A stretch of 64,000 bases of DNA. It comes from Dyadobacter luteus. GTDB taxonomy: Bacteria; Bacteroidota; Bacteroidia; Cytophagales; Spirosomataceae. The stretch spans positions 62,001 to 126,000 of the forward strand of contig NZ_QNUL01000001.1 in assembly GCF_003383615.1 (NCBI RefSeq), read 5' to 3'. The translations under genes were made by a program, and so were the position numbers. Below the pieces are notes generated by a model. That model saw only the letters and a program-made list of their open reading frames with translations, did not search any database and was not told where the DNA came from. Shown here piece after piece: positions 4,100-34,456 of this stretch; position 1 is the stretch's first letter, and the number at the start of each line of letters is the position of its first letter.

Positions 4100-4120
4100 A
4101 TTCTATTTAACATAATATAA
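4100..4120. repeat. 21-bp direct repeat, left copy
   Basis: A 21-base AT-rich word beginning ATTCTATTTAAC and ending ATAATATAA, repeated exactly at 4601-4621. Exact 21-base identity within one spacer is well above chance even in AT-rich DNA, so the copies probably arose by duplication or mark the ends of a decayed insertion. Confidence 0.75.
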
Positions 4121-4600: not shown

Positions 4601-4621
4601 ATTCTATTTAACATAATATAA
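4601..4621. repeat. 21-bp direct repeat, right copy
   Basis: Exact second copy of the 21-base word at 4100-4120, in the same orientation, 480 bases away. A short CCTGTA also precedes each copy, immediately in the left one and about 15 bases upstream in the right one, hinting that the duplicated unit was once longer. Confidence 0.75.
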
Positions 4622-4825: not shown

Positions 4826-5716
4826 TCAGGCTACATCGCAGATCTCAACTCCTTGCTTTAAAGATGCCAATTGATCTGCTCTTTTTGGTATAAACTCCTG
4901 AGCCACAAAGCCTTTATACCCAGTTTCAACTATTGCTTTCATAATTGCGGGATAATAAAGCTCCTGCGTTTCATCAATTTCATTTCTTCCAGGAACACCA
5001 CCAGTATGGTAATGGCCAATGTACTTATGATATTTTTTGATCGTCGCAATCACATCGCCTTCCATAATCTGCATGTGATAAATATCGTACAGTAGTTTGA
5101 ATTTTTCAGAACCAATCATTTCACAAAGACCAGCGCCCCATTCAGTTCTGTCACACATGTAGTCAAGGTGATTTACTTTACTGTTAAGTAATTCCATGAT
5201 CATGGTAATATTATACTTTTCAGCAGCAGGCATCAGTCGCCTTAAACCAATCGCACAATTTCTCATTCCATCTACATCCGACATTCCACGTCTGTTGCCA
5301 GAAAAACAAATCACCGTTGTGTAGCCAGCAGCCTGCAACTTTGGAAAAAGTTCTTCATAACTTTTTACCAGCTCGTCGTGGTTTGCCAGATCATTAAAGC
5401 CTTTCTCAATTCCCATTCCAGCGCCGTTTGGCAAAGCACATGTCAATCCATATTTTTTCAGAATCGGCCATTCATCAGGTCCCAATAATTCGATAGACTT
5501 GATTCCCATTTTCTTACACTCTTGTGCAAAAGTTTCCAAAGGAATTTTGCCATAGCACCATTTGCAAACTGAGTGATTTATTTTCCCTTTCAGCTCAGGC
5601 CCAAGAATAGTTTCAGCTTTTGTAATTGCAGCCGTTAAAGACTGAGGTACAACCACAGCGCCCGAAACTGCTGCAATTCCTTTGATCAATTGTCTTCTGG
5701 AAACGTTAGATTTCAT
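4826..5716 (-). CDS. Hydroxypyruvate-isomerase-like TIM barrel, exported (second of tandem pair)
   Basis: A 296-residue member of the xylose isomerase-like/AP endonuclease 2 TIM-barrel superfamily, closest in motifs to hydroxypyruvate isomerases, which interconvert hydroxypyruvate and tartronate semialdehyde. Likely metal ligands are seen in MELLNSK (Glu), LLYDIYHMQ (Asp), GHYHTGG (His) and AQEFIPK (Glu). The N-terminus carries a twin-arginine-type signal (VSRRQLIKG followed by a hydrophobic stretch), so export is expected. The longest frame opens at a GTG at 5743, but the ATG at 5716 places the Tat motif at residues 5-12 and starts 13 bases after the stop of the upstream paralogue. The substrate is not known; exported members may act on other sugars or sugar acids. 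Confidence 0.82.
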   Translation of the reverse strand: MKSNVSRRQLIKGIAAVSGAVVVPQSLTAAITKAETILGPELKGKINHSVCKWCYGKIPLETFAQECKKMGIKSIELLGPDEWPILKKYGLTCALPNGAGMGIEKGFNDLANHDELVKSYEELFPKLQAAGYTTVICFSGNRRGMSDVDGMRNCAIGLRRLMPAAEKYNITMIMELLNSKVNHLDYMCDRTEWGAGLCEMIGSEKFKLLYDIYHMQIMEGDVIATIKKYHKYIGHYHTGGVPGRNEIDETQELYYPAIMKAIVETGYKGFVAQEFIPKRADQLASLKQGVEICDVA

Positions 5717-5729
5717 ATTCGTTATCAAT

Positions 5730-6623
5730 TTAAGCAATGTCACAAATCTTAACTGCCTGAGTCAGTGATGCAATGTCGTTCCCACGACTCGGAACAAACT
5801 CCTGCCCTACGTATCCTGTGTAGCCTGTCTCTGCAATTGCCTTCATCACAGCAGGATAATATATTTCCTGAGTTTCATCAATTTCTTTTCTTCCAGGCAC
5901 ACCACCCGTATGATAATGAGCGATATACTTGTGGTACTTTTTGATTGTCGCAATCACGTCACCTTCCATAATTTGCATATGGTAAATGTCATAAAGTAAT
6001 TTAAATTTTTCAGAACCTACCATTTCACAAAGTGCTGCTCCCCAGGAAGTGTGATCGCACATATAATCTTTATGATCAACCTTACTGTTTAGCAACTCCA
6101 TCACAAGAGTAACATTGTACTTTTCCGCTATAGGAATTAATTTCCTAAGCCCGGTTGCACAATTGCGAAGCCCGTCCAAATCACTCATTCCCCTCCTATT
6201 TCCTGAAAAACAGATAATCTTGTCATATCCGGCTGCCTGGACTTTGGGAATTACATCTTCGAAACCTTTGATCAATGCTTCATGATTTGCTGTATCACAA
6301 AATCCTTTATCCAGGCTTCGTGTTGCACCTTCACCCCAGGGCAAAGCGCATGTCAATCCATTTTTCTTAAGAGTTGCCCATTCATCAGGACCACACAATT
6401 CTATGGATTTAATTCCCATTTTCTTCGCTTCCTGTGCCAGCGTGTCCAACGGTATTTTACTGTAACACCACCTGCAAACAGAATGATTTATTTTACCATT
6501 TAAGGTTGTTCCAAGCGCCTCCTTGTTTTTGGAGAAAACCGAGGTGAGTGATAGTGGAGTCATTACCAGGGAGCTGGCTGCAATTTTTTTGATGGCTTCC
6601 CTCCTTTTTGAATTCAATGTCAT
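5730..6623 (-). CDS. Hydroxypyruvate-isomerase-like TIM barrel, exported (first of tandem pair)
   Basis: A 297-residue paralogue of the next gene downstream, sharing long identical blocks (for example around GNRRGMSD, LLYDIYHMQIMEGDV and YHTGGVPGR). Predicted metal ligands are Glu176, Asp212, His238 and Glu275. The N-terminus SKRREAIKKIAASSLVM resembles a Tat signal, but the twin-arginine motif is weaker than in its partner. The two genes are head to tail with 13 bases between stop and start, clearly co-transcribed, and follow the cytochrome-fused propeller gene at 6817 after a terminator. This suggests a tandem duplication and a role in catabolism of a product of that locus. The precise reaction cannot be read from sequence. 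Confidence 0.82.
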   Translation of the reverse strand: MTLNSKRREAIKKIAASSLVMTPLSLTSVFSKNKEALGTTLNGKINHSVCRWCYSKIPLDTLAQEAKKMGIKSIELCGPDEWATLKKNGLTCALPWGEGATRSLDKGFCDTANHEALIKGFEDVIPKVQAAGYDKIICFSGNRRGMSDLDGLRNCATGLRKLIPIAEKYNVTLVMELLNSKVDHKDYMCDHTSWGAALCEMVGSEKFKLLYDIYHMQIMEGDVIATIKKYHKYIAHYHTGGVPGRKEIDETQEIYYPAVMKAIAETGYTGYVGQEFVPSRGNDIASLTQAVKICDIA

Positions 6624-6816: not shown

Positions 6817-9519
6817 TCATTTCCCAGTCTTTTTCTGGGACGCTGATGCTTCAGTATAAATAGGATTATTTTTATTTCCACCAGACATCAGATACGCTAC
6901 CAAATCTCTGAGTTCGTTTGGATTCAAACCGTTGATAAGCCCAGGGAGCATCACCGAGACAGTTGAAATTTTAGAAGATACTACATCTTTCTTATTCAAT
7001 TTCCGGATTGTTTTTGAATCAAACGGATTCTGAGCAATATAATAGAAATTGGCATCCTCATTAATCTGACGTCCCACTATCGATTCATTGTCTTTCATCG
7101 TGTATGCGATAGAAGCGTACTGATCTGAGATAGCATTGTTAGGCTCAATAATAGCTTCAAGCATATCCTTCGCAGAAAATCTCGTCCCCAACTGTGTCAG
7201 GTCTGGTCCTACATCCGCACCGGATCCCTGAATCGTATGGCAGCGATCACATAAAACTGCGGAAAATATCATTTTTCCCCTCTCAAAATCCCGGTTACTC
7301 AAACTATCCTGTACAAGTGCAACAGCATCAGGGAGTTTCCAGCCACGACCCGGGCCTTTGGGGGTGTAAAGTTTAACGAGATCATTTCCATTTCCGGTCA
7401 GTAACTCTGCTCCTGAAATTTTATTATAATGTGCATATCTTTCTTTCGGAACATTTTTCAATGCCAACTGACGAGCCTTATCAATAAAGCCGATGTAACT
7501 TCTACCACCCTGATAACTAAATGCTTTGTGAAACCAGGCAAAGTATTTATCTCTCAGTTGCGGAGTCCATCCGGTTTTCTGACTGCTTAGCACGATAGCA
7601 TAAAATGTCTGCTGTGCCGGAGGCATTTTTTCGAGAAGTCCTGCCAGATCTAAACCATACTGCGGGTTTCTCAAAATGAGATCTGCCGAAGCCGTCACCA
7701 TTTCATTGTCCTTATCGTCAAACTGCTCATTCTTTTCAAGTAATGCCAAAGTTTTTTCAATCACCTTCGGAGCTTCCAGATTAACCAGAATTTTACTAAA
7801 AAATCTGTTTAGTATCGGCGATTCAGATGGGTACTTGGGATTCAGATATGCAATCAGTTTTGCTTTGGTGGCAGCATCAGGTTTACCAGTTCTATACAAA
7901 ATAACTTCAATTGTTCTTAACAAATCCTGTTTCTGAATCTGGTTCAAACCATTGTAATTGATTGTCGTAAGGTTACTGAGTAGCGGACCGCCTACTTTCG
8001 ATGAATCTCCCTGACGCCCTAAAGCCAAAGATCCATAAATAAGTGTTTGGGGATCTTTCTCTGCAAAAACTTTATCACTCCACTCACTAACAGGCTGATG
8101 TTCAACAGCAATGCGTGCTGCGTATCTCAGGAAACGATCACCACTTTTCAGCAGTGGCCACGCAGCCGCTATTGCAGCAGGATCCTTTTTAGCATGAAAC
8201 TTTTCAATGTCAGTTCTTTGCTTATGCTCTTTTGTTATAACAACTTCTGCTTTGTTGGAACCAGCCGGGATGTTTTTATAATCTTCATAATACACACGAT
8301 ATAAATCCGATTCCAGTCTCCGTCCACCCGTTAAAAAGTAGAGAGCACCATCCGGTCCGATTACACCATCGGTTAGTGGCAATGGCGCACCAGATAAAAA
8401 TTCTTCGTGATCTGCGGAATATGTCGATCCATTTGGCTTCAGGTGTAAACCGTGAACAATACCAAAACTCCAGTCAAATGCAAGCAGCGTATTTTTATAC
8501 TTTGCAGGAAATCTCGCATCCTGAAGATAAAGTAAGTTCGTAGGTGAACCCTGACCTATGTTCATAATCGGTGAAAGATTATCCGCAAAAGTAGGTGACC
8601 AGTTTGCAGAACCCGTTCTCCATCCGTATTCCGCTCCGCTGGTTGCATGGCATACACGCGTCGGCCGATACCAGGGAGTTCCGAAATCCCATTCCATGTC
8701 CGAATCATAAATGAACAAATCACCAGCTTCGTTGAAAGCGATATCGTAAGAATTGCGATAACCTGCACTTACCAATTCCCAATTTTTCCCTTCCGGATCT
8801 GTGTGTGCAATCCATCCTCCCGGAGCATTCCGATCCGTTGCATGACCTCTCGGATCTTTGATCCATGGAAACAAATTGTCATTTTTCCAGTTGTCCATTA
8901 ACAGATACGTATCCATCTTAGGCAGATCCGTAAAATTCCCTGCTACGACATACAAAGATTTTTTATCCGGAGAAAGAACAATACTATGCGGACCGTGCTC
9001 TCCTTCACCTTTTAACGCTTTGATCAATGTAATTTTGTCGTACTGATCATTATTGTCAGTATCCTGCAACCGGTACAAGCCACTGCCCTTTGGGAATCTT
9101 GGATTTTCCCGGTTATTGATCATGACATACAAACTGTTGAATGCATACAAAAGTCCATGTGCATAACCCATTGCTATTTTTGCTGTATCACCTTCAATCT
9201 TAAGTTCTTCAATAACCGGTTCCGCAGTCTGACCGATTTCCGGCAATTTCATTCTGAACAAACTTCCATATTGATCCGAAGTGATCAAACGACCTTTGTC
9301 ATCAAATGCCATTGAAACCCAGGACCCGTTTTTGGATTCAGACGGGCTGTACAAATGTTCTGCTTTAAATCCGGTTGGTAATTTAATTTTATCAACCTTT
9401 GAGCCCGGTGGCCTGTGTTTGGCTGGTCGGTTGCTAATCAAAATTCCGCTTAACACACCCACCGCTATCACCAATGCGAGTGTTATTGGAAGTCTGTACC
9501 ATTTTTTTTGATTGTACAT
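6817..9519 (-). CDS. Membrane-anchored beta-propeller dehydrogenase-like protein with HEAT region and cytochrome c domain
   Basis: A 900-residue periplasmic protein. Residues about 10-30 form a single membrane anchor or uncleaved signal. Residues about 45-410 resemble the soluble glucose/sorbosone dehydrogenase and PVC-type 'membrane-bound dehydrogenase' propellers (DGKGRLITSDQYGSLFR, EHGPHSIVLSPDKKSLYVVAGN, GAEYGWRTG, GVIGPDGALYFLTGG). Residues about 430-740 are helical and HEAT-like. A cytochrome c domain follows with the haem motif CDRCH at 757-761 (codon checked at 7249-7251) and a likely axial methionine near 857 (VMLPG). Such architectures are known in Planctomycetes and Cytophagales; substrate and cofactor are undetermined. 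A 16-bp motif at 9652 is shared with the susC upstream region. It probably oxidises a sugar-like substrate and passes electrons through its haem. Confidence 0.82.
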   Translation of the reverse strand: MYNQKKWYRLPITLALVIAVGVLSGILISNRPAKHRPPGSKVDKIKLPTGFKAEHLYSPSESKNGSWVSMAFDDKGRLITSDQYGSLFRMKLPEIGQTAEPVIEELKIEGDTAKIAMGYAHGLLYAFNSLYVMINNRENPRFPKGSGLYRLQDTDNNDQYDKITLIKALKGEGEHGPHSIVLSPDKKSLYVVAGNFTDLPKMDTYLLMDNWKNDNLFPWIKDPRGHATDRNAPGGWIAHTDPEGKNWELVSAGYRNSYDIAFNEAGDLFIYDSDMEWDFGTPWYRPTRVCHATSGAEYGWRTGSANWSPTFADNLSPIMNIGQGSPTNLLYLQDARFPAKYKNTLLAFDWSFGIVHGLHLKPNGSTYSADHEEFLSGAPLPLTDGVIGPDGALYFLTGGRRLESDLYRVYYEDYKNIPAGSNKAEVVITKEHKQRTDIEKFHAKKDPAAIAAAWPLLKSGDRFLRYAARIAVEHQPVSEWSDKVFAEKDPQTLIYGSLALGRQGDSSKVGGPLLSNLTTINYNGLNQIQKQDLLRTIEVILYRTGKPDAATKAKLIAYLNPKYPSESPILNRFFSKILVNLEAPKVIEKTLALLEKNEQFDDKDNEMVTASADLILRNPQYGLDLAGLLEKMPPAQQTFYAIVLSSQKTGWTPQLRDKYFAWFHKAFSYQGGRSYIGFIDKARQLALKNVPKERYAHYNKISGAELLTGNGNDLVKLYTPKGPGRGWKLPDAVALVQDSLSNRDFERGKMIFSAVLCDRCHTIQGSGADVGPDLTQLGTRFSAKDMLEAIIEPNNAISDQYASIAYTMKDNESIVGRQINEDANFYYIAQNPFDSKTIRKLNKKDVVSSKISTVSVMLPGLINGLNPNELRDLVAYLMSGGNKNNPIYTEASASQKKTGK

Positions 9520-9779
9520 TTTACAGTTCAGAGTTTAAGTATATAAAATTTTTAAAAATCAGCTTCATGGCACTCTCTTTTATTATTAAATAAAACAAAA
9601 TAAAACTTAGAATAGTCTGATTTTACAATTATAGGAGTTATCGCTCAGCATACTATCCTGCTGTGTCGGGTTCAGGGAATATTTAAGTAGATTCTAATAG
9701 ACATACAGTTCAGGTACACATTTGAAAAAATTACGAAATAAAAAAATAATAAACGAAAACAATATTACTAAAAAATAGT
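9520..9779. other. Intergenic region upstream of the propeller-cytochrome gene
   Basis: An AT-rich spacer with no open frame of interest. It contains the 16-bp motif at 9652-9667, 132 bp before the ATG at 9519. The interval between motif and ATG would be a long 5' leader if the motif is a promoter element. No other structure was seen. Confidence 0.5.
9652..9667 (-). promoter_or_regulatory. 16-bp motif shared with the susC upstream region
   Basis: The minus strand reads GACACAGCAGGATAGT. The same 16 bases occur at 14878-14893 upstream of susC, and flanking positions raise the match to 20 of 21. Both copies face the gene they precede. A common promoter or activator site for the two transcription units is inferred. 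Confidence 0.6.
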
Positions 9780-9815
9780 AAAACCGGCAGATCACACTTA
9801 CGAACTGCCGGTTTT
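9780..9815 (-). terminator. Intrinsic terminator after susD
   Basis: Perfect 11-bp arms AAAACCGGCAG (9780-9790) and CTGCCGGTTTT (9805-9815) with a 14-base loop, A-rich on the left so that the minus-strand RNA ends in U. It closes the susC-susD unit. Confidence 0.88.
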
Positions 9816-9840
9816 CAAATAAAAGCCTCTACAGCCCGGT

Positions 9841-11349
9841 TTAGAAATGTGGTGTCAGGGCAGCTTCAACCGCTGGTAAACCGTAATAGTCGTCCAGGAC
9901 AGTAAAAGCATTGTTTGGCGGCACAGCTCCCGGAGGAAAATAGTACGCTGCCGGATTGGCTTTTACCTTTGCTCCGTATGCTCCAATAATTTCCTTCACT
10001 CGTCCTGTCCTGGTAAGGTCGAACCAGCGTTTGTTTTCAAAAGCAAGCTCTACACGTCTTTCCTTGAAAATAGCCTCACGCATCGCAGTCTGACTGGTTG
10101 CTGTGGTAGCAGACAAACCTGCCCGGGTTCTCACCTGATTAATATAGGTTGCCGCTTCAGCAGGCTTACCTTGCTCGTTAAGCGCTTCTGCCAAAAACAA
10201 TAATACTTCCGAATAACGATAAACAGGCCAGTTCTGACCAGTATTATTATGCAATGCATGTGTCCTTGCATACTTCTTGATATAAGGATATCGCTTGTTA
10301 GTAACCAGACTTCCGCTCAAAGTCACATAGCCAATTGAAATATCCTTACGTTTATCTCCTTCTTCGTAAGCTGCGATCAGGTCCGGCGTCGGGATGTTGT
10401 TACTTTCCTGAGAAAGTCCCTGAGGATTGGCAGTGCCTACAATCGGACTTAACTCTTCCGATTTAATAGGAGCAGGAAGAAAGCGATAAATTTGATTTCC
10501 GTTAAATCCGGCAGCTCCTTCCATATACTGTATTTCAAAAACAGACTCCTGATTGTTCTTATTTGAGCTGGTAAAAGAGAATGCGTTGTTGTAATCCGGC
10601 ATCAGCGTATAGCCATCGTTCGTGATCACCTCTCTGGTAAGTCTCTCTACATCAGTCCACTTTTTCTGTGTCAGATATAGATTGGCTAATAAAGTTTTCG
10701 CTGCTCCGGAGGTTGCTCTGCCTGCTTGCTGCTTCGCTTTATTGAGCAACAGAGTACTTGCCAACTCTGCATCTGTTTTAATCTGAGCGTAGATATCTTC
10801 AGTTGACGCCAACGGTTTGGCTGCATCCTCACGACCGGTTACCGGCGTCAGATGCAAAGGGACTTTCCCGAATAACCGCACCAGATCGAAATAAGCAAAT
10901 GCACGCAGAAACAGTGCTTCTCCTTTAAGATTGCTTTTTATAGCCGAATCAAAGTCAGCCTGATCAATCGTAGCAAGCACCTGATTCGCCCTGGCAATAA
11001 TCAGATAATTGAGACGATATTGAACAAGAACGTTGTCGTTTGGAGTCGTTCCATTTGCGGTCGGTACTGCAAAATCAGCTACGTTCTCAGTCGCATCAAC
11101 CGCTCCAAAAAGCGTGTTTCTAGCGTAATAGGTATTATCTGAATGCATTTCCTCTAATACCCATGCACGTTCATTAAACATCTGACGCAATGGAGCATAA
11201 ATAGCGTTAACTCCCTGCTGAAAGTCCGCCTGCGTTCGGAAAAATGTTTCTGTAGTCAGTTCTGTTTCAGGAAGAACGCTAAGGAAACCCTCGTTACAAC
11301 CTGCCAAAGTCAATGCTAACATGCAGGCTCCTATATATTTTATTTTCAT
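9841..11349 (-). CDS. RagB/SusD family nutrient uptake outer-membrane lipoprotein
   Basis: A 502-residue surface lipoprotein that forms the lid over a SusC-type TonB-dependent channel and binds the imported ligand. The N-terminus is a lipoprotein signal with lipobox LAGC (Cys18), followed by the typical SusD start NEGFLSVLPETELTTETFF. TPR-like helices of the SusD fold run through the middle (ARANQVLATIDQ, LKGEALFLRAFAYFDLVRLFG). The C-terminal part carries the family signature KERRVELAFENKRWFDLTRTG. It starts 37 bases after the susC stop, so the pair is one operon. The ligand is unknown. No glycoside hydrolase lies next to it, so a small molecule or a simple glycan derivative is possible. Confidence 0.93.
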   Translation of the reverse strand: MKIKYIGACMLALTLAGCNEGFLSVLPETELTTETFFRTQADFQQGVNAIYAPLRQMFNERAWVLEEMHSDNTYYARNTLFGAVDATENVADFAVPTANGTTPNDNVLVQYRLNYLIIARANQVLATIDQADFDSAIKSNLKGEALFLRAFAYFDLVRLFGKVPLHLTPVTGREDAAKPLASTEDIYAQIKTDAELASTLLLNKAKQQAGRATSGAAKTLLANLYLTQKKWTDVERLTREVITNDGYTLMPDYNNAFSFTSSNKNNQESVFEIQYMEGAAGFNGNQIYRFLPAPIKSEELSPIVGTANPQGLSQESNNIPTPDLIAAYEEGDKRKDISIGYVTLSGSLVTNKRYPYIKKYARTHALHNNTGQNWPVYRYSEVLLFLAEALNEQGKPAEAATYINQVRTRAGLSATTATSQTAMREAIFKERRVELAFENKRWFDLTRTGRVKEIIGAYGAKVKANPAAYYFPPGAVPPNNAFTVLDDYYGLPAVEAALTPHF

Positions 11350-11386
11350 ATCTGATCTGATTTTATAAATGATAAACAGCCTGGTT

Positions 11387-14300
11387 TTAGAAGTTGAGAT
11401 TTACACCCAATGTCCAGGTACGTGGAACCGGATAGTTTGAGAAATCAACACCCTGACTCAGGTTACCACCATCACCATTTCCATCCGCCTGTGCACTTGT
11501 TTCAGGGTTAGGTCCACCGGTATAATTTGTGAAAACCCATGCTTGCTGAACGGAGCCATAAACCCTTGCTGACTTAAACACTTTATTAACTTTCCCGATA
11601 TTGTAACCCAATGTGATATTCTTAATCGTGAAGTAAGAAGCTTTGGCTACAAAATGAGAACTGTTCCAGTCGCGCTCAATACCGGTATAATTTCCGCCAT
11701 TGTTAGTAGCACCGAACTGTCCGCTACCTGGTGTGATGATCGTTGTTGCCACTCCTGTACCGTTGGCATCAGCTACATTTTTAACTCTGAAACGATCTTT
11801 TACTCCGGCAACCATATTGAATACTCCATCAAGATTGGCAGTACTATATAAATGCCTTACCCACAGATCGTTACCATGAGAACCAGAACCTACAATCGAA
11901 AGATCCCATTTGCCATAGCTCAGGTTATTCACAATTCCATATGTGAATTTCGGGAATGGATTACCGATGATAGTCCGGTCATCATTGTCACCACCGTTCG
12001 TAATCCTTCCGTCACCGTTCACATCCTTGAACTTCACAGTACCGATCGCTGAACGACCCGGAATAACAGGCGAACTGGCTAGCTCTTCCTTACTCATATA
12101 AAAACCTTCTTTTTGCAAACCATAGAACATACCGAATGGCTGACCAACCTGCGTGATATGGAATGTACCATATACTCTGTCGATGCCCGGGGCCAGGGCC
12201 AACACCTTGTTTCTGTTAAAAGCAATGTTGGCATTCGTTGTCCATTTCAGCTTTCCTTCCAGATTTCTGGTGGTCAATGCGATCTCATGTCCCCACAGTT
12301 TAATCTCTCCGATGTTGTCAAAGTAATTGGCAAAACCCGACTCCTGAGGGACCTGAACAGCATACAGAAGGTTGGTAGTTCTTTTGGAATAAAAGTCATA
12401 CACCAATTGGATACGATCATTGAACAAACCCAGATCCAAACCCAAATCCATTTGTCTTGTAGTTTCCCAGCTCAGGTTCTTGTTGGCCAATGAAATTACG
12501 CCTGCACCGGTTGAAACAGTTTCTCCGAATACAGCATTAAGCGTATTACTAACGCGCGCATATTGGGTATAGTTACCGATATTGTTGTTCCCGATTACGC
12601 CAATACTTCCACGAATCTTTGCAAAAGAAATGTGGCGGGATGTATTCAGGAAATTCTCATCCGACATTACCCAACCCGCTGATGCAGAAGGAAAAGTACC
12701 CCATAACTTTTCATTTCCAAATCTGGATGAACCATCAGTTCTCAAAGCTGCCGTGAACAGGTACTTTCCTTTGAAATTATAAGAAAGACGTGACAGGTAA
12801 GAAGTAAGCTTCCATTCACTCACACCATTGAAAGATCCAGGACGGTTCACATTTACCGCACCCTGAATTGTTGGTAGGCGATCATCCGCGTAAGTGTCTG
12901 TTTGTATACGCTCAAATTCCTGACGATATCCCTGTTGCGTAAAACCAGCCAGTAATTCGAAATTGTGCTCACCCAAACTTTTGTGATAAGTAGCCGTATT
13001 CTCGTTCAGCCAGCCTGTATTTGTCAGAGCCTGACGGATGGATACAGCTGTTGTAGGTATTGGGACGTTAATCGCACTGGTCGCAGTAGAGGGATTGAAG
13101 AAGAAAAATCTGTTGTTTTCGAATTCAATGTTCAACGTTGATCTGATATTAAGACCTGGCAACGGGTTAACCTGTAAATAGGTGTTTCCCAGAATCTTAA
13201 CATTCTTATTTTCGTTTGTCAGTTCATCTGCAGCTCTCACCCAGTTTGGATAAGCATAAATATTCCCCGTGCTTTCCGGGAAACGGTTGAATTTGGTCAG
13301 TTCGCCGTTTGCATCTCTGATCGGCATCACCGGCCATGTGTGCAGCGCATTGAACAGGATACCAGTACCACGGTCACCATCGGTTCTCGGTGTGTTATCA
13401 TAAACATACTGTGGCGCAATGTTGAATCCTACCTTTACTTTACTTGAAAGATCGTAGTCCGTATTCATCCTCAGCGAGTAACGCTTGTAGGTATTGTTTC
13501 GCACAACCCCTTCCTGGTTGAAAATCCCACCAACCAATGAAGTCCGCATGTTTTCCTTACTGGATGTCACCGAAATATTATAGCTCTGTATGGGAGCCCT
13601 GCGCAGTACCGCATCATACCAGTCGTTATTTTTTCCTTCATAAATGGAAGGATCTCTAAACTCCTCAGGAACAGTCTTATTCTCGTCTTCGTAATATTCT
13701 TTCTTAAACTGAGCAAACTCAACAGCGTTAAGCATTTTCACCCGACCTTTCTGAGGCACGTTTTGTGTACCGTAAAATGCGTTCAAGCTCACATTCGTCT
13801 GACCAGCTTTGGGCTTTTTAGTGGTAATAAGCACTACCCCATTCGCCGCTCTTGATCCATAAAGAGAAGTCGAAGCCGCATCCTTAAGAATAGAAATATC
13901 CTCAATTTCATCGGGGTTCATAGCTCCGATATTACCCGTAATCGGGAAACCATCAATTACATAGAGTGGATCACTACCTGCTGAAACCGATACCTGGCCA
14001 CGAATACGTACTGACATCCCCTGCCCCGGTTTACCTGTCGTCTGGTTGATCTGTACACCAGCAAGTCGTCCCTGCAATTTCTGTGTTACCTGCGAAACGG
14101 GAATATCTTTCAATTCCTCACTTTTCACAGTTTGAACCGAACCAGTAATTTCCTTCTTAAGCTGACTACCATAACCAACCACAACCACTTCTGTAAGTGC
14201 TTTGGAATCAGCATCCAGTTGAATATTTATGGTGGAATTGCTACCAATCGAAACTTCTTTTGTCAGATAACCAACAGAAGAAATTACCAGCGTTCCGCCT

Positions 14301-14653
14301 GCATCAGGTACGCTCAGAGAGAAATTCCCTTCCGCGTCCGACACAGTACCAGTGTTTGTACCCTTCACAAGTACGCTTGCACCCGGCAAACCTTCACCAT
14401 TTTCATCGGTAACCTTACCGTTGATGGTTTTATTAACTACAGAAATCTCACGGGAGTATCTTGCTTTTGTTAATAACGGTTTACTTTCGGCATAAGAACA
14501 TAGGGCAAGCGTGGCCATGCATGTAAGCCAAAGCATTCTCCCCCTGTCCCTCATTCCTGCACTCTCATTGAATAGTCCAGATTGAATCATAAAATTGATA
14601 GGTTTAGAAAATAAAAGTTTGTTTAAGTCGCCCGGAGGACGTTTAATTTTCAT
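11387..14653 (-). CDS. SusC/RagA family TonB-linked outer-membrane protein
   Basis: A 1088-residue TonB-dependent channel of the SusC type. The N-terminus includes a hydrophobic segment at about 39-53, then a carboxypeptidase-regulatory-like beta domain at about 77-150 (ING-KVTDENGEGLPGASV, VISSVGY), a TonB box EVVVVGYG at 155-162, the plug at about 166-278 (RIRGQVSVSAGSDPLYVIDG, ILKDAASTSLYGSRAANGV) and a 22-strand barrel ending in aromatic LNF. It pairs with the SusD gene downstream. The frame starts at ATG 14653; an ATG at 14590 would shorten the pre-sequence and cannot be excluded. The 5' region carries the shared 16-bp motif and an AT-rich palindrome at 14822-14849. Confidence 0.95.
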   Translation of the reverse strand: MKIKRPPGDLNKLLFSKPINFMIQSGLFNESAGMRDRGRMLWLTCMATLALCSYAESKPLLTKARYSREISVVNKTINGKVTDENGEGLPGASVLVKGTNTGTVSDAEGNFSLSVPDAGGTLVISSVGYLTKEVSIGSNSTINIQLDADSKALTEVVVVGYGSQLKKEITGSVQTVKSEELKDIPVSQVTQKLQGRLAGVQINQTTGKPGQGMSVRIRGQVSVSAGSDPLYVIDGFPITGNIGAMNPDEIEDISILKDAASTSLYGSRAANGVVLITTKKPKAGQTNVSLNAFYGTQNVPQKGRVKMLNAVEFAQFKKEYYEDENKTVPEEFRDPSIYEGKNNDWYDAVLRRAPIQSYNISVTSSKENMRTSLVGGIFNQEGVVRNNTYKRYSLRMNTDYDLSSKVKVGFNIAPQYVYDNTPRTDGDRGTGILFNALHTWPVMPIRDANGELTKFNRFPESTGNIYAYPNWVRAADELTNENKNVKILGNTYLQVNPLPGLNIRSTLNIEFENNRFFFFNPSTATSAINVPIPTTAVSIRQALTNTGWLNENTATYHKSLGEHNFELLAGFTQQGYRQEFERIQTDTYADDRLPTIQGAVNVNRPGSFNGVSEWKLTSYLSRLSYNFKGKYLFTAALRTDGSSRFGNEKLWGTFPSASAGWVMSDENFLNTSRHISFAKIRGSIGVIGNNNIGNYTQYARVSNTLNAVFGETVSTGAGVISLANKNLSWETTRQMDLGLDLGLFNDRIQLVYDFYSKRTTNLLYAVQVPQESGFANYFDNIGEIKLWGHEIALTTRNLEGKLKWTTNANIAFNRNKVLALAPGIDRVYGTFHITQVGQPFGMFYGLQKEGFYMSKEELASSPVIPGRSAIGTVKFKDVNGDGRITNGGDNDDRTIIGNPFPKFTYGIVNNLSYGKWDLSIVGSGSHGNDLWVRHLYSTANLDGVFNMVAGVKDRFRVKNVADANGTGVATTIITPGSGQFGATNNGGNYTGIERDWNSSHFVAKASYFTIKNITLGYNIGKVNKVFKSARVYGSVQQAWVFTNYTGGPNPETSAQADGNGDGGNLSQGVDFSNYPVPRTWTLGVNLNF

Positions 14654-14821
14654 GGTGAATATTACATAGGCTCAGATTTTGGTGGATTTGATATATAGTT
14701 TACTGGAGATTATTCTGGTATAGTGAAAGCACAGACCTGAGGTCCGTTTCAGGATCTGATTGATGGGAGGAAATGTCGTTTAGTATAAACATTGGACTGA
14801 TAATTCGATACATATTTGTAT

Positions 14822-14849
14822 AATAATACCTATTTAAAATAGTATTATT
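14822..14849. repeat. AT-rich imperfect palindrome in the susC leader
   Basis: Arms AATAATAC and GTATTATT, with TATTT/AAATA inside, lie between the 16-bp motif and the susC ATG. It could be an operator or a leader hairpin. The sequence is low complexity and the call is weak. Confidence 0.35.
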
Positions 14850-14877
14850 CGCAATAGTAGTTCTATTCTGAAACGAG

Positions 14878-14893
14878 ACTATCCTGCTGTGTC
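14878..14893 (-). promoter_or_regulatory. 16-bp motif shared with the propeller-cytochrome gene
   Basis: The minus strand reads GACACAGCAGGATAGT, identical to 9652-9667. It sits 224 bp upstream of the susC ATG and points toward it. Within the 394-base spacer 14654-15047 nothing else but a palindrome and the neighbouring gene's terminator was recognised. Confidence 0.6.
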
Positions 14894-14994
14894 CGGTTTT
14901 TACAAATATTTTTAAAATAAGTTTTTATTGAACTATATCATGTAGTGAATCAAAATGGAGTGAGGTTTTGCAAGAATTTGAATTATTCAAGCAT

Positions 14995-15047: not shown

Positions 15048-16469
15048 TCATGCAAGTAAATCAAGCACAGCTTTGCCTTTCCCGTCCGGAGTTGTGTAAA
15101 ATGGTCGTTTCTCCACCTCGTATTGCGTGTCCTCAGCTATACCCAACGCGTGGTAAATTGTCTGATGCACCTGATCAATTTTAATAGGATTTTCAATTGT
15201 CTTACACGGCCTCTCATCTGCCGTTTTGCCATATACAAAACCTTTCTTCACCCCTCCTCCAAACATCAACATCGAGCATCCGTCTGTAAAATGCCGGTGC
15301 ATTCCATAGAATTTCATGTCGGTGAGGATATCCGGTTGGGCTACCTGCTCCTGTACTTTTTGATCTGGCCGGCCTTCAACCATCATATCCCTGCTGAACT
15401 CGCTTGCAAGGACAATCATCGTTCTGTCCAGAAGACCTTGTTTATCCAAATCCTTTACCAACTGAGCAATTGGCCCATCGATCTGACGCTTCATTTCAAC
15501 AAGCCGCGTGTTGCCATTTTCATGAGTATCCCAACCTTTAAATGGTTCGTATTCGGTAGTTACACTTATAAAACGAGCCCCTTGTTCAGTTAACCTGCGG
15601 GCCAGCAGGCAACCTAAACCAAATTTTCCGGTATTATAGATGTTATAACTTTCTTTCGGCTCGGTACTCAGATCGAAAGCTTTTGATTCTGGCGAATTCA
15701 ATAATGCGTAGGCTTGCTCCATTGATCGCTTCAAGGACTCTCTCTGATAATCGCTGCCAAACTCTCCCACCGGACTATTATTGATCAACTCATTATATAA
15801 CTGATTCCGTCTCTCAAAACGTTTGACATCCATACCAACGGGTGGTCTTACGCTGTCGAGTCCCTGCGTAGGATCAGGAATAAAGAATGGTCCGAACTCA
15901 TTGCCCAGAAAGCCGGCTGTATGAAATGCTTTCAACTCCTCGGCCTCACCAACAGTAAATCTCTGACCAATATCGATGAACGCAGGAATCACCGGATTCT
16001 TCGGTCCAAGCTCCTTTGCGATCCACGAACCTATATGGGGCGCCGCCACTGTTTGAGGCGGCTCATAGCAGGTATGCCAGTGATACTGGTGTCTAGAATG
16101 AAGAATGTGCCCCATGTCTGCAGCAACATAGGAACGTATCAAAGTTCCTTTGTCCATCACATTTCCGATAGATTGCAGTCCCTCTGAAAAGTGTATTCCG
16201 TCAAGAATTGTAGGGACAGATCGAAACGTACTCAGCACGCGGTTCCCTTCAATACCAGTCTCATAAGGAGTAAATTTTTTGGGGTCGAATGTTTCAGTAT
16301 GAGCCATCCCTCCTGCCATCCAGAGCAAAATAACCGTGTCGGCTTTCGAATTGGATCCTGGTTTACAAGCTGATAAAAGATTACTTACCGGTGATCCTGC
16401 CGCCAATGCAGCCATAGTTGCGGCACTTGCCCGTTGCAGAAACTCTCTTCTATTCCAGTTCTTGTTCAT
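15048..16469 (-). CDS. DUF1501 domain protein, Tat-exported
   Basis: A 473-residue protein of the DUF1501 family, distant relatives of sulfatases and alkaline phosphatases and abundant in Planctomycetes. The N-terminus is a clear Tat signal (WNRREFLQRASAATMAALAAG). Family sequence includes VILLWMAGGMAHTETFDPK near the start, a central RFISVTTEYEPFKGWDTHENG and a late GRPDQK... MHRHFTDGCSMLMFGGGVKKG block. DUF1501 genes are usually encoded beside PSCyt/DUF1549/DUF1553 genes, exactly as here, where the di-haem partner at 16666 lies immediately upstream. The biochemical activity of the family has not been settled; the Asp/His-rich blocks suggest a metal-dependent hydrolase fold. Confidence 0.9.
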   Translation of the reverse strand: MNKNWNRREFLQRASAATMAALAAGSPVSNLLSACKPGSNSKADTVILLWMAGGMAHTETFDPKKFTPYETGIEGNRVLSTFRSVPTILDGIHFSEGLQSIGNVMDKGTLIRSYVAADMGHILHSRHQYHWHTCYEPPQTVAAPHIGSWIAKELGPKNPVIPAFIDIGQRFTVGEAEELKAFHTAGFLGNEFGPFFIPDPTQGLDSVRPPVGMDVKRFERRNQLYNELINNSPVGEFGSDYQRESLKRSMEQAYALLNSPESKAFDLSTEPKESYNIYNTGKFGLGCLLARRLTEQGARFISVTTEYEPFKGWDTHENGNTRLVEMKRQIDGPIAQLVKDLDKQGLLDRTMIVLASEFSRDMMVEGRPDQKVQEQVAQPDILTDMKFYGMHRHFTDGCSMLMFGGGVKKGFVYGKTADERPCKTIENPIKIDQVHQTIYHALGIAEDTQYEVEKRPFYTTPDGKGKAVLDLLA

Positions 16470-16665
16470 ATCAAAATCTTAACATATTGATTATCAATCA
16501 CAACATATAAAATGTAATATATTTTTAAAAAGTATTATATGTACTTATCTTTTTATACAAATAATTGTTTTATTAAAGTATTAAAAATATTTACAGTAAA
16601 TTATTATTAGACTTTTAAAACATATAAAATGAATTATACATTATAAATGCTTTATACATTTTATA
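16470..16665. other. Very AT-rich spacer with recurring TATAC/GTATT words
   Basis: About 195 bases of almost pure A and T between the PSCyt and DUF1501 genes, with repeated short words such as TTTATAC, AAAGTATTA and CATTTTATAC. No gene or terminator stem was seen. The composition matches two other spacers near 58.3 and 60.0 kb. Confidence 0.5.
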
Positions 16666-19026
16666 CTAATATATGAGTTGAAATTCAGGGGTTAAAGCAA
16701 TAGCCCAAACCAAATCCTGAATCCCTTCCTCTGTAGGTAATTTCCCTACTATTTTTTTAGCTGCTGTCAGTTCCTTCGGCACAGGTTTTCTGCCTAGCGT
16801 ATTTTCATACAGTGCATCAATGAGTGCATCCGAAGTTGGATATTTGCTCCGCCAATGGGTTGAACCCTTTTTTAAGGTTTCTGTAAATTTCGATCCATTG
16901 GTTAGCTCCAGTGCCTGTAACAAGTTAGCCTGAGACATCCGGCTTGTACTTACCGTCTCTCTGTTGGGTCGTCCCAAAGCGGTTAAAAAAGGATCATTCT
17001 TAACCAAAGCTGCGCGGGGAAGAATTTTATTCTTTTTCAAATCTTCTGGCAGTAATTTGTAAACGATCGCAGTATCGGCATACATGGGTTCAAATGAAGC
17101 ACTGATCGCATCACTGAATTGTTCCGCCGTCATCCGCTTTCTTGCCATACCGGTAAACCTGTAGGATTCCGACATCATCTCATCTGCTTCTTTTACGGAA
17201 GAGGAAGGTAGCTGATAGGTTCTGGATGTTACAATCGTATAGATAAGTTTCTTCATGTCATAACCGTTCGCTGCGAAATCGGACGCCAACCAGTCCAGTA
17301 AATCCTCGCTCCAGGGAAGGTTATCCATCATATCTACCGGCTCCACTATTCCTCTGCCGAGCAGCTGCGCCCAAATCCGGTTTACCACTGTTCTGTAAAG
17401 TCTCCCGTTTTTAGGCTGCACCAGCATATCGGCAAGTTGTCGTAACCTCAACTCTGTATCTTTCGTAACACTTATCTCCCCTAATTCAGGAAATAGCATC
17501 CTCGTACCAGCGATTTTTCCTGTCGGTTTATCGCACCTGTTGATTTCAAGAAGAGTATCGGCAAAAATATTCGCGAACGCATAGGCGTCATCCAGTTTCC
17601 AGTCACTGATAAAACTATCATGGCATGACGCACATTTAAGGTTGAGCCCTAGCAAGACTTGAGATACATTCTGTGCTGCCTGCATTTCTGTACGCTGACT
17701 GCTATTGATGGTACCGCGCCACTTAATACCTTTTATAAAACCCTCAGATCCTTTCACAGGACTCACCAGCTCTTTCACAAGCTGATTGTATGGTTTATTA
17801 CTTTCGAGAGACATGTACAACCATTTTGTAATATCAAATCTACCACCAGTAATATACCCCGTACCCGAGTAATCGTTTCTCAACGCATCATTCCAGAAAG
17901 AAAGCCAATGCTGAGTATACTGATCATTCCTTAACAGCAACTCACTGGCCAATCTCTCTCTTTTATCCGAACGCTTATCTGCCAGAAATGTATTTACCTG
18001 CAAAGGCGTAGGAAGCAAACCTACAATATCCAGATATACCCGACGGATGTAAACCTTGTCGTTCACCAATGGTTGCCATTCTATTTTATTCTTTCTGAAA
18101 TATGCATTTACAAAACGATCAACGGGCTGTACAATATCTCCACTCGCCGGAGGTATTTCAGGATTTCGAGGTTCCAGTCGTGCTACACGGTAAATACTTT
18201 TCTCCTTACCATCAGGCCATTTGGCACCTTTTTCAATCCAAAATTTCAGTATTTCGACTTCTTTGTCCGTCAATCTCTTACCCTTCGTTGGCATAGCTTC
18301 TTTATGACCTTTGGGCAATGTAATCCTTCGGATCAGTTCACTTTTGTCGGGTTGACCCGGCACGACGACAGCACCGCCTTTTCCGCCCTTCATCATTAAT
18401 TCCTTTCCGTCCAGACGTAAGTCTCCTTTCGACTTGGCTTCTCCATGGCAACTGTAACAGTTATGAGCCAGGATGGTTCTTACCTGTAAATTGAGATCCA
18501 GAAGCTGCTGCTCGCTTAACGCTCCATGATTAGTAAGTACAAAGTCTGTACCGCCAGCGCTATCCTCAGCACTTTGTTGGTTGGGTAATACGCTTGTCAG
18601 GTAGTCATCCCCATGTGTGAGCATTGCACCATAGTGTCCGGCAATAGTTACTCCCAATACCGTCAGCACCAAGGCACCTCTATACGCTTTGATGTTATTT
18701 CTCTGTAGGAAGAAAGCTGTTACTCCTGATAGGATTGCTGTTGCTATCCCCGCCCATTGATGAATATCCAATAACGGGGCACCATAATCTCCATTATCTG
18801 CCAGCAGCAATCCCAAAATCGCTGCGATTATGGCTGTAGTTGTTCCAATAAATATCAGAATCCGACTGGCACCGCGTAATGCATTATTTCCTTTACGCCA
18901 GTCTATGACTTCGAGCACCAGTGCGACACAAAGCAGGCTTATCGGAAAATGAACAAGGAGCGGATGTAGCCTTCCTAGAAATTGCCAGAGCCAGAAGGTT
19001 CCGGTCGATTGTAAGAGCATGCACAT
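16666..19026 (-). CDS. PSCyt1/DUF1549/DUF1553 di-haem protein with N-terminal membrane domain
   Basis: A 786-residue protein of the type known from Planctomycetes and some Bacteroidota. The N-terminus resembles DUF2231 with about four membrane helices (LHPLLVHFPISLLCVAL, ILIFIGTTTAIIAAILGLL). A PSCyt1 cytochrome domain follows with haem motif CYSCH (18445-18459), then DUF1549/PSCyt2 with a second motif CASCH (17620-17634), then DUF1553/PSD1 near the C-terminus (RLYRTVVNRIWAQLLGRGIV, ETVSTSRMSQANLLQALELTNG). The longest frame opens at a TTG at 19131; ATGs at 19026 and 19020 come just before the first membrane segment and are preferred. It likely sits in the inner membrane facing the periplasm and carries electrons, working with the DUF1501 protein. 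Confidence 0.87.
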   Translation of the reverse strand: MCMLLQSTGTFWLWQFLGRLHPLLVHFPISLLCVALVLEVIDWRKGNNALRGASRILIFIGTTTAIIAAILGLLLADNGDYGAPLLDIHQWAGIATAILSGVTAFFLQRNNIKAYRGALVLTVLGVTIAGHYGAMLTHGDDYLTSVLPNQQSAEDSAGGTDFVLTNHGALSEQQLLDLNLQVRTILAHNCYSCHGEAKSKGDLRLDGKELMMKGGKGGAVVVPGQPDKSELIRRITLPKGHKEAMPTKGKRLTDKEVEILKFWIEKGAKWPDGKEKSIYRVARLEPRNPEIPPASGDIVQPVDRFVNAYFRKNKIEWQPLVNDKVYIRRVYLDIVGLLPTPLQVNTFLADKRSDKRERLASELLLRNDQYTQHWLSFWNDALRNDYSGTGYITGGRFDITKWLYMSLESNKPYNQLVKELVSPVKGSEGFIKGIKWRGTINSSQRTEMQAAQNVSQVLLGLNLKCASCHDSFISDWKLDDAYAFANIFADTLLEINRCDKPTGKIAGTRMLFPELGEISVTKDTELRLRQLADMLVQPKNGRLYRTVVNRIWAQLLGRGIVEPVDMMDNLPWSEDLLDWLASDFAANGYDMKKLIYTIVTSRTYQLPSSSVKEADEMMSESYRFTGMARKRMTAEQFSDAISASFEPMYADTAIVYKLLPEDLKKNKILPRAALVKNDPFLTALGRPNRETVSTSRMSQANLLQALELTNGSKFTETLKKGSTHWRSKYPTSDALIDALYENTLGRKPVPKELTAAKKIVGKLPTEEGIQDLVWAIALTPEFQLIY

Positions 19027-19295
19027 AAAAGAAAACTTGAATAGGTTCAGGACATGGTTGATATACAGAGTTACCTGTAAACAATGGTATAAGTGAAACA
19101 CCCCTAATTCTTTACTTAACCCCAACACCAAAAAGTACGTGGAACAGGACTTCTGGCTGGCTAACTTTTACATCTTCCAAACCCCGATGTGGCAAGTCCC
19201 AAGTAAACAACTACTTAGAAAACAAATTATTGATATAATATAATTAATAATTGTAATTTTATAATAATATTCCTTCTCCTCTATGCAATCAACGT

Positions 19296-33128: not shown

Positions 33129-33380
33129 TTAAAAAATCACTTCATTTCTTAGTAGTGTAGCCTGAAACTGCCCTCCCATGCTGTCAAATGTTTGTGCCAC
33201 TGCTCTGAGAAACGGTTCATCAATACATTTCTCGATTTCTTCAACGGTTTCGACCTCATATTGATCGATTTTGTAAGTTTGTTCAAACATTCCGGTTTCA
33301 ACTTTGATAATATACTTGTTATTCCATTGGTATATACCAATCTTAAAGTCTTTGCTGGGTACGTCTTTAATATATCTCAT
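33129..33380 (-). CDS. Small conserved-type hypothetical protein
   Basis: An 83-residue protein of unknown function (MRYIKDVPSKDFKIGIYQWN...). The frame fills the gap between the TPR operon and the divergent lipoprotein gene, has an ATG, and shows ordinary amino-acid composition with alternating beta-strand pattern (KIGIYQWNNKYIIKVE). No membrane segment or known motif is seen. Small proteins of this kind occur widely in Cytophagales, but I cannot name a family. Coding status rests on composition and position. Confidence 0.65.
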   Translation of the reverse strand: MRYIKDVPSKDFKIGIYQWNNKYIIKVETGMFEQTYKIDQYEVETVEEIEKCIDEPFLRAVAQTFDSMGGQFQATLLRNEVIF

Positions 33381-33421: not shown

Positions 33422-34456
33422 ATGAATTTCCAATTTTTAAACAGATATTTGCTAATTATTTTAGTAATAACTTCGATAGGTTGCGGTAATCAAAGAAAAA
33501 AAGATGCAGCTGATTTTTTTCTAAAAGCCAATCATGCATTTCAACAAAAGAATTATACCGAAGCTCTGAGGCTGTATGATGAAGCAATCAACAAGAATCC
33601 GGATTTCGCAGACGCTTATATGAATAAAGGTATCTGTTTGATGAAAATGAGTCAGCCTGCAGATGCCTATGAGATTTTGACAGAAGCAATCCGGATTGAT
33701 CCTACCCTTACACAGGCAAATCTCGTACGGGCAGAAGTGGCGCTCAATTTGGGCAGAACCGCAGAAGCTGATGCTGATTTAAAGCTAATCGAAAAAGACT
33801 ATAAGGACTCTTCACGGTATTTTCTGATCCGGGGAGATTTGTTTCAGGCAAGAAACGAATCGGCCTTATCTGTTTCAGACTATGACCGCGCAATTACTCT
33901 GGACTCAACTAATACAGAAGCTTTGGTCAACAGAGGAGCACTGTACTACAATCAGGCAAATTATGCACTGGCACAGCACGACTTTCGCAGAGCACTTACT
34001 ATTCGTCCCTCGCAAATAGAGGCATTGAATAACCTTGGACTCATCGCGATCCATCAGCATAAACACGATGAAGCGCTAAGATTGTTTGATCAGATATTAT
34101 ACCTGAACCCTGCCAACGCATTGGCTTTGAATAATAAAGGCTATACCCTTCTTCAGTTGGGACGCCTGGATGAAGCTGTTAAACTGATCGACAGATCGCT
34201 GGATATCATGCCGGAAAATGGATATGCGCTACGCAACATGGGCATCTATCATATGAAGTCGGGCGACGTTGAGAAGGCTTTAGCAGAATACAATAAGGCC
34301 ATAGAAATAGCTGAACCTGTTGAAGAACTGTACGGACTTACAGGGCAGGCTTATTTCAAAAAAGGAGACTCTTCCAATGCATGCAAAATCTGGAAGCAAG
34401 GTTCAGTCCTGAAAGATGCGCTGGCTATTTCAGAACTGAAACTACATTGTAAATAG
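33422..34456 (+). CDS. TPR lipoprotein
   Basis: A 344-residue protein with a lipoprotein signal (LLIILVITSIGC, Cys about 21) followed by eight or so tetratricopeptide repeats covering nearly the whole mature chain (ANHAFQQKNYTEALRLYDEA, AYMNKGICLMKMSQPADA, ALNNKGYTLLQLGRLDEAV, ALRNMGIYHMKSGDVEKAL). It is predicted to sit in the outer or inner membrane facing the periplasm as a protein-binding scaffold. It is divergent from the small gene at 33380 (41-base gap) and convergent with menD, the stops lying seven bases apart. Confidence 0.85.
   Translation: MNFQFLNRYLLIILVITSIGCGNQRKKDAADFFLKANHAFQQKNYTEALRLYDEAINKNPDFADAYMNKGICLMKMSQPADAYEILTEAIRIDPTLTQANLVRAEVALNLGRTAEADADLKLIEKDYKDSSRYFLIRGDLFQARNESALSVSDYDRAITLDSTNTEALVNRGALYYNQANYALAQHDFRRALTIRPSQIEALNNLGLIAIHQHKHDEALRLFDQILYLNPANALALNNKGYTLLQLGRLDEAVKLIDRSLDIMPENGYALRNMGIYHMKSGDVEKALAEYNKAIEIAEPVEELYGLTGQAYFKKGDSSNACKIWKQGSVLKDALAISELKLHCK

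Follow-up and report, generated by a model that had tools for sequence, protein, structure and literature searches.

A conserved element at two promoters of one locus

The window, by which we mean the whole 64-kb stretch of DNA analysed here, carries an identical 16-bp sequence upstream of a susC gene and of a propeller/cytochrome gene, and the question is which regulator, if any, reads it and in response to what. The preliminary description placed two copies of GACACAGCAGGATAGT on the minus strand at 9652-9667 and 14878-14893, extended the match to 20 of 21 positions, and reported no other copy in the window. A recheck bore this out, with AACC[C/G]GACACAGCAGGATAGT as the extended form, and even the whole 6.95-Mb genome contains just these two exact copies, one upstream of susC and one upstream of the propeller-cytochrome gene. 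The next best match has two mismatches, and the number of sites with three (around 50) is close to chance level. The distances to the start codons, given as 132 and 224 bp, hold for the first ATG of each open reading frame. The true start of susC is probably the second ATG, at 14590, because SusC orthologs within the genus are typically 1067 amino acids long, and the second distance would then become around 287 bp.

The 16-bp repeat taken alone is weak evidence for anything beyond chance: around 7 different 16-mer repeats occur in the window, where a third-order Markov model leads one to expect around 2.2 repeated 16-mers. With about two such repeats per window expected anyway, a chance repeat without function might be proposed, but 48 genomes keep the site at orthologous promoters with a fixed spacing, which leaves this proposal with a negligible probability. 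With a degenerate pattern of the site, 48 Dyadobacter genomes gave between 2 and 7 matches each (3-5 in most), and with a reversed control pattern 0-2. In each of the 16 genus relatives, a form of the site precedes the cytochrome gene by 117-205 bp. It likewise precedes this gene, with the same spacing, in every one of the 19 named Dyadobacter loci, and those genus susC orthologs for which the upstream stretch was available carried it as well. Strong profile matches (E<1e-5) in Dyadobacter genomes concentrate in the susC/cytochrome locus. A random distribution had been named as a refutation, and the sites are not randomly distributed. Conservation is decisive here over the repeat statistics and argues for a real, conserved regulatory element.

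All genes of the locus lie on the minus strand. The cytochrome gene (6817..9519) encodes a PVC-type protein of 900 amino acids with a propeller and a c-type cytochrome part (NCBIfam TIGR02603, E 1.7e-25); a Piru_Ver_Nterm match in the same protein stays below its cutoff. Two genes for TIM-barrel isomerase-like proteins follow downstream (4826..6623; Pfam AP_endonuc_2) and, judging from gene order alone, probably share its transcription unit. The other unit comprises susC (11387..14653; TIGR04056, E 7.5e-244) and susD (9841..11349; Pfam SusD_RagB). A further unit of the locus, with the DUF1501 and PSCyt/DUF1549/DUF1553 genes (15048..19131), has a site of its own in most relatives; no recognisable site for this unit was found in the window. 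Typical Dyadobacter relatives possess four sites, one per transcription unit: before a second SusCD pair, PSCyt-DUF1501, susCD and the cytochrome gene. The second SusCD pair is absent from the window genome.

Several observations stand apart from this. At other places in Dyadobacter genomes, the same kind of site precedes paralogous operons for PSCyt and DUF1501 proteins (L244, L245, L307-L309 and L339), and a record titled Akkermansia muciniphila MAG (L392) encodes a 41% relative of the cytochrome protein. The window further contains a perfect 16-bp palindrome, ATTGGTATATACCAAT, at 33326-33341 upstream of a TPR gene at 33422, and an AT-rich direct repeat of around 21 bp (4100-4120 and 4601-4621), whose copies lie 501 bp apart with no long open reading frames around them.

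Promoter architecture

The element consists of two head-to-tail half-sites, GGAYAGT-N3-GGAYAGT, with a 10-bp period, of which CCGGACAGTGCAGGACAGT in L124 is an example. The predicted operator of susC, GGACACA-GCA-GGATAGT (14878..14894, minus strand), is the top own-genome match of both profiles described below. That of the cytochrome gene (9652..9668, minus strand) reads CGACACA-GCA-GGATAGT, with GGAYAGT-like half-sites of which the upstream one is degenerate. A -7 box, overlooked in the preliminary description, follows each site after 18 nt: TATAATTG at 9626..9633 for the cytochrome gene and TACTATTG at 14852..14859 for susC, both on the minus strand, with predicted transcription starts around 9621 and 14847, respectively. 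Dyadobacter sites are followed by TAnTATTG, nearly always after 18 nt, and those of other genera by TAnnTTTG after 17-18 nt. The sigma-A -7 box of Bacteroidota (TAnnNTTG-like) spans -12 to -5 (PMC9723704). Given this position and the 18-nt spacing, the site would cover about -47 to -31, so that in this sigma-A promoter it is predicted to lie where the -33 box would otherwise be, the region where RNA polymerase docks. The preceding gene has a terminator-like hairpin, AAAACCGGCAG...CTGCCGGTTTTAC, which lies upstream of the cytochrome site and indicates that this site begins a new transcription unit. An Rfam scan for an RNA element returned tRNA only.

The idea of a shared promoter element or activator-type site serving different transcription units of one locus is supported. 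The additional suggestion of a dedicated sigma factor is not, as the box at the fixed distance of 17-18 nt is an ordinary sigma-A box, TAnnNTTG, and an ECF-type CGT -10 box (PMC9723704) is lacking. What speaks for an ECF sigma factor promoter is that in five relatives the site precedes genes for an ECF sigma factor and a FecR anti-sigma factor, followed by susC (L140, L142, L251 and L252 in Dyadobacter, L143 in another genus), and that further ECF-FecR operons carry the site (L248, L301 and L312). Most Dyadobacter genomes keep the site without ECF/FecR genes in the locus, and together with the sequence of the box this makes such a promoter very improbable. Where the ECF/FecR genes intervene, the N-terminus of SusC is usually longer; most Dyadobacter, including the window genome, are without these genes.

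Further sites and a probable connection to L-rhamnose

Two profiles were used to search for further sites. Profile R1 was made from 45 sites on sequence only: the two window sites, their Dyadobacter orthologs and three sites at susC promoters from two other genera, with no rha site included. On the window genome it recovered the susC and the cytochrome promoter and, as the third-best match (E 0.06, which is weak when taken alone), the promoter of the L-rhamnose operon. This promoter reads GATACCACAGGACGGT-N18-TAATCTTG and is followed by the gene for RhaEW, a bifunctional rhamnulose-1-phosphate aldolase/dehydrogenase of 707 amino acids, and then by that for L-rhamnose isomerase (rhaI). The orthologous rhaEW promoter of ten relatives reads GATACMACAGGACGG[T/A]-N18-TA[A/T]TCTTG. 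The training set of the broader profile R2 consisted in part of rha and susC sites, and its E-values for those sites are therefore not independent; R2 gave 1.7e-7, 8.5e-7 and 8.6e-6 for the three units of the window genome, and 1.8 for the next match. A match at C1:346859 in the window genome (L141) falls within the coding sequence of an ECF gene and has a chance-level score.

In 26 genomes of other genera, R2 recovered sites before rhaEW (four genera), susC, a PSCyt ortholog, a lutA/LUD operon and the genes of a GH88 protein and a GH78 rhamnosidase; the other matches were weaker and chance-like. The same site is thus found before rhaEW/rhaI in the window genome, in ten relatives and in four other genera, and the targets outside Dyadobacter have mostly rhamnose and lactate functions. 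The RhaEW reaction gives lactate (PMC3870299). In some relatives, operons of PSCyt paralogs and of ECF-FecR genes are preceded by sites as well. Outside Dyadobacter, 16 of 41 loci show the strict tandem pattern with the -7 box before susC, against an expected 0.1, and none shows it before the cytochrome gene, which makes susC the old target and the cytochrome site a Dyadobacter addition.

The three own-genome sites (susC, cytochrome gene and rhamnose operon) stand against around 170 SusC-like first-look candidates in the genome. The proposed general enrichment before susC-type genes therefore did not hold, and a genome-wide susC motif was rejected. A Cur/Crp (BT4338) site was rejected as well, since its consensus palindrome TATGTTnTAnAACATA differs (PMC6989115), and so was an HTCS site, the period of which differs. 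The sites of known RhaR regulators of the AraC and LacI type, a 21-bp-period direct repeat or a 20-bp palindrome, do not agree with a 10-bp period and no palindrome. The direct repeats of 10-11 bp used by RhaR of the DeoR type do agree in structure, but the gene at the rha locus is of the GntR and not of the DeoR type.

The candidate regulator and its probable mode of action

The candidate reader of the site combines a GntR-type winged helix (PF00392, E 7e-12) with a LacI-type sugar sensor (PF13377, E 9.6e-9); in the window genome its gene lies on contig C45, at around 318.3-319.3 kb, which corresponds to positions 13344-14363 of L267 on the minus strand. Such a GntR+Peripla_BP_3 gene adjoins rhaEW/rhaI in 14 of 22 genomes and a susC ortholog in two more (G098 and G034), so that a regulator gene beside the rha genes or other targets was found in 16 of the 22. 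In G011 and G017 the order is GntR gene, site, rhaEW; in G089, G008, G015, G018 and G024 the gene is divergent from rhaEW, with a tandem element in the gap. In Dyadobacter it is found beside rhaI, outside the susC/cytochrome locus. GntR regulators mostly bind palindromes and mostly act as repressors. The site studied here is a direct repeat and not a palindrome of the NyGTNxACNy type; exceptions within the family that use direct repeats are known (PMC4494728).

Recognition helix and site appear to change together. The susC site of g5, g9, g3 and g19 reads GG(T)AAGT-N3-GGAAAGT, and the rhaEW site of g5 and g9 likewise ends in GGAAAG; the recognition helix of the GntR protein is KGTVER/KRTVER in g5, g9 and g3, in place of RDTVEK or RVTAEK. 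An exception is g19, with GGAAAGT at susC and GGATACG at rhaEW. This joint variation speaks against the view that the GntR gene is a mere neighbour and that the reader is another direct-repeat regulator, of the DeoR, OmpR or AraC type, encoded elsewhere. DeoR-family rhamnose regulators do use direct repeats of the same period (10-11 bp; PMC3870299). However, the GntR protein is the only regulator recognised in the rha region of the window genome (L267), and in several genera the site lies within the gap between the GntR gene and rhaEW. We consider a reader other than the GntR protein rather unlikely.

We consider it likely that the site is an operator of a GntR-family L-rhamnose regulator that acts as an activator, and that the susC-susD and cytochrome locus is switched on with rhamnose use. 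This reading builds on the site, its conservation, its rigid spacing, the promoter architecture common with the rhamnose operon and the GntR gene neighbourhood; from these we infer the GntR protein as reader, the rhamnose-related ligand and the activator mode. Two GntR subunits, bound head to tail to GGAYAGT-N3-GGAYAGT from the same side of the helix, would span about -47 to -31 and stand in for the -33 box, with the sigma-A -7 box fixed 18 nt downstream. With rhamnose or a breakdown product present, the regulator would activate three units in the window genome: rhaEW-rhaI, susC-susD, and the cytochrome gene with the isomerases. Rhamnose or a derivative is the presumed ligand because the sites accompany rhaEW, rhaI, GH78 and lutA.

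The same operator and regulator could also work by repression, the protein covering the -33 region and blocking RNA polymerase until rhamnose releases it. The habits of GntR regulators favour this: most sugar regulators of the GntR/HutC type repress, and the solved relatives include AraR and YvoA. The site moreover overlaps the promoter and, in G008, lies within around 15 bp of the regulator's own start. Yet the spacing of 17-18 nt to the -7 box, fixed in all units and genera, is not needed by a repressor, and the -33 box appears to be replaced by the site. On account of the fixed distance and the replaced box we favour activation, at somewhat above one half; repression by the same protein is the less likely mode.

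Comparison with known systems and implications

L-rhamnose regulons described earlier are controlled by RhaR proteins of the AraC, DeoR and LacI families (Rodionova et al. 2013; PMC3870299). The regulon proposed here resembles them in being small, centred on rhaEW and rhaI and in places extended to lactate genes, and it shares with DeoR-type RhaR the direct-repeat sites of 10-11 bp period. It differs in its candidate regulator, a GntR type with a LacI-type sensor, a family not on that list, and in the inclusion of a SusCD/PVC-type cytochrome locus. FucR (BT1272) of Bacteroides thetaiotaomicron, another member of the Bacteroidota, also belongs to the GntR family and controls a deoxyhexose pathway, although it concerns fucose and a single target operon (PMC3878776); the likeness considered here is one of family and pathway. 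Direct repeats before susC genes are also known from the HTCS and SusR-like sites of Bacteroides, but with periods of 21 bp (HTCS) or 67/77 bp (SusR) instead of 10 bp, and with large membrane regulators (PMC3878776). NagQ, NanR, FarR and GabR share the GntR-family DNA-binding domain on tandem half-sites and differ in site sequence and sensor domains (PMC4494728). We found no description of a GntR-type rhamnose regulator in Spirosomataceae in the open-access literature.

It is possible, and we propose this tentatively, that rhamnose use in Spirosomataceae is regulated by a hitherto undescribed type of protein, a GntR-LacI hybrid, which would activate from tandem half-sites at -33 and control a SusCD/DUF1501/PSCyt/PVC-type cytochrome locus. 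This would add a candidate family to the AraC, DeoR and LacI regulators of rhamnose use and would provide a case of a tandem operator in place of the -33 box in Bacteroidota. Planctomycetes, Verrucomicrobia and some Bacteroidota carry many DUF1501, PSCyt (DUF1549/DUF1553) and PVC-type cytochrome genes, whose function is unknown (PMC5615132). If the proposal is true, this widespread SusCD/DUF1501/PSCyt/PVC-type cytochrome gene set would gain its first substrate class, rhamnose-containing glycans. Its joint regulation with the catabolism of L-rhamnose would, in a genus that can be cultured, make the substrate of the DUF1501, PSCyt and cytochrome genes testable.
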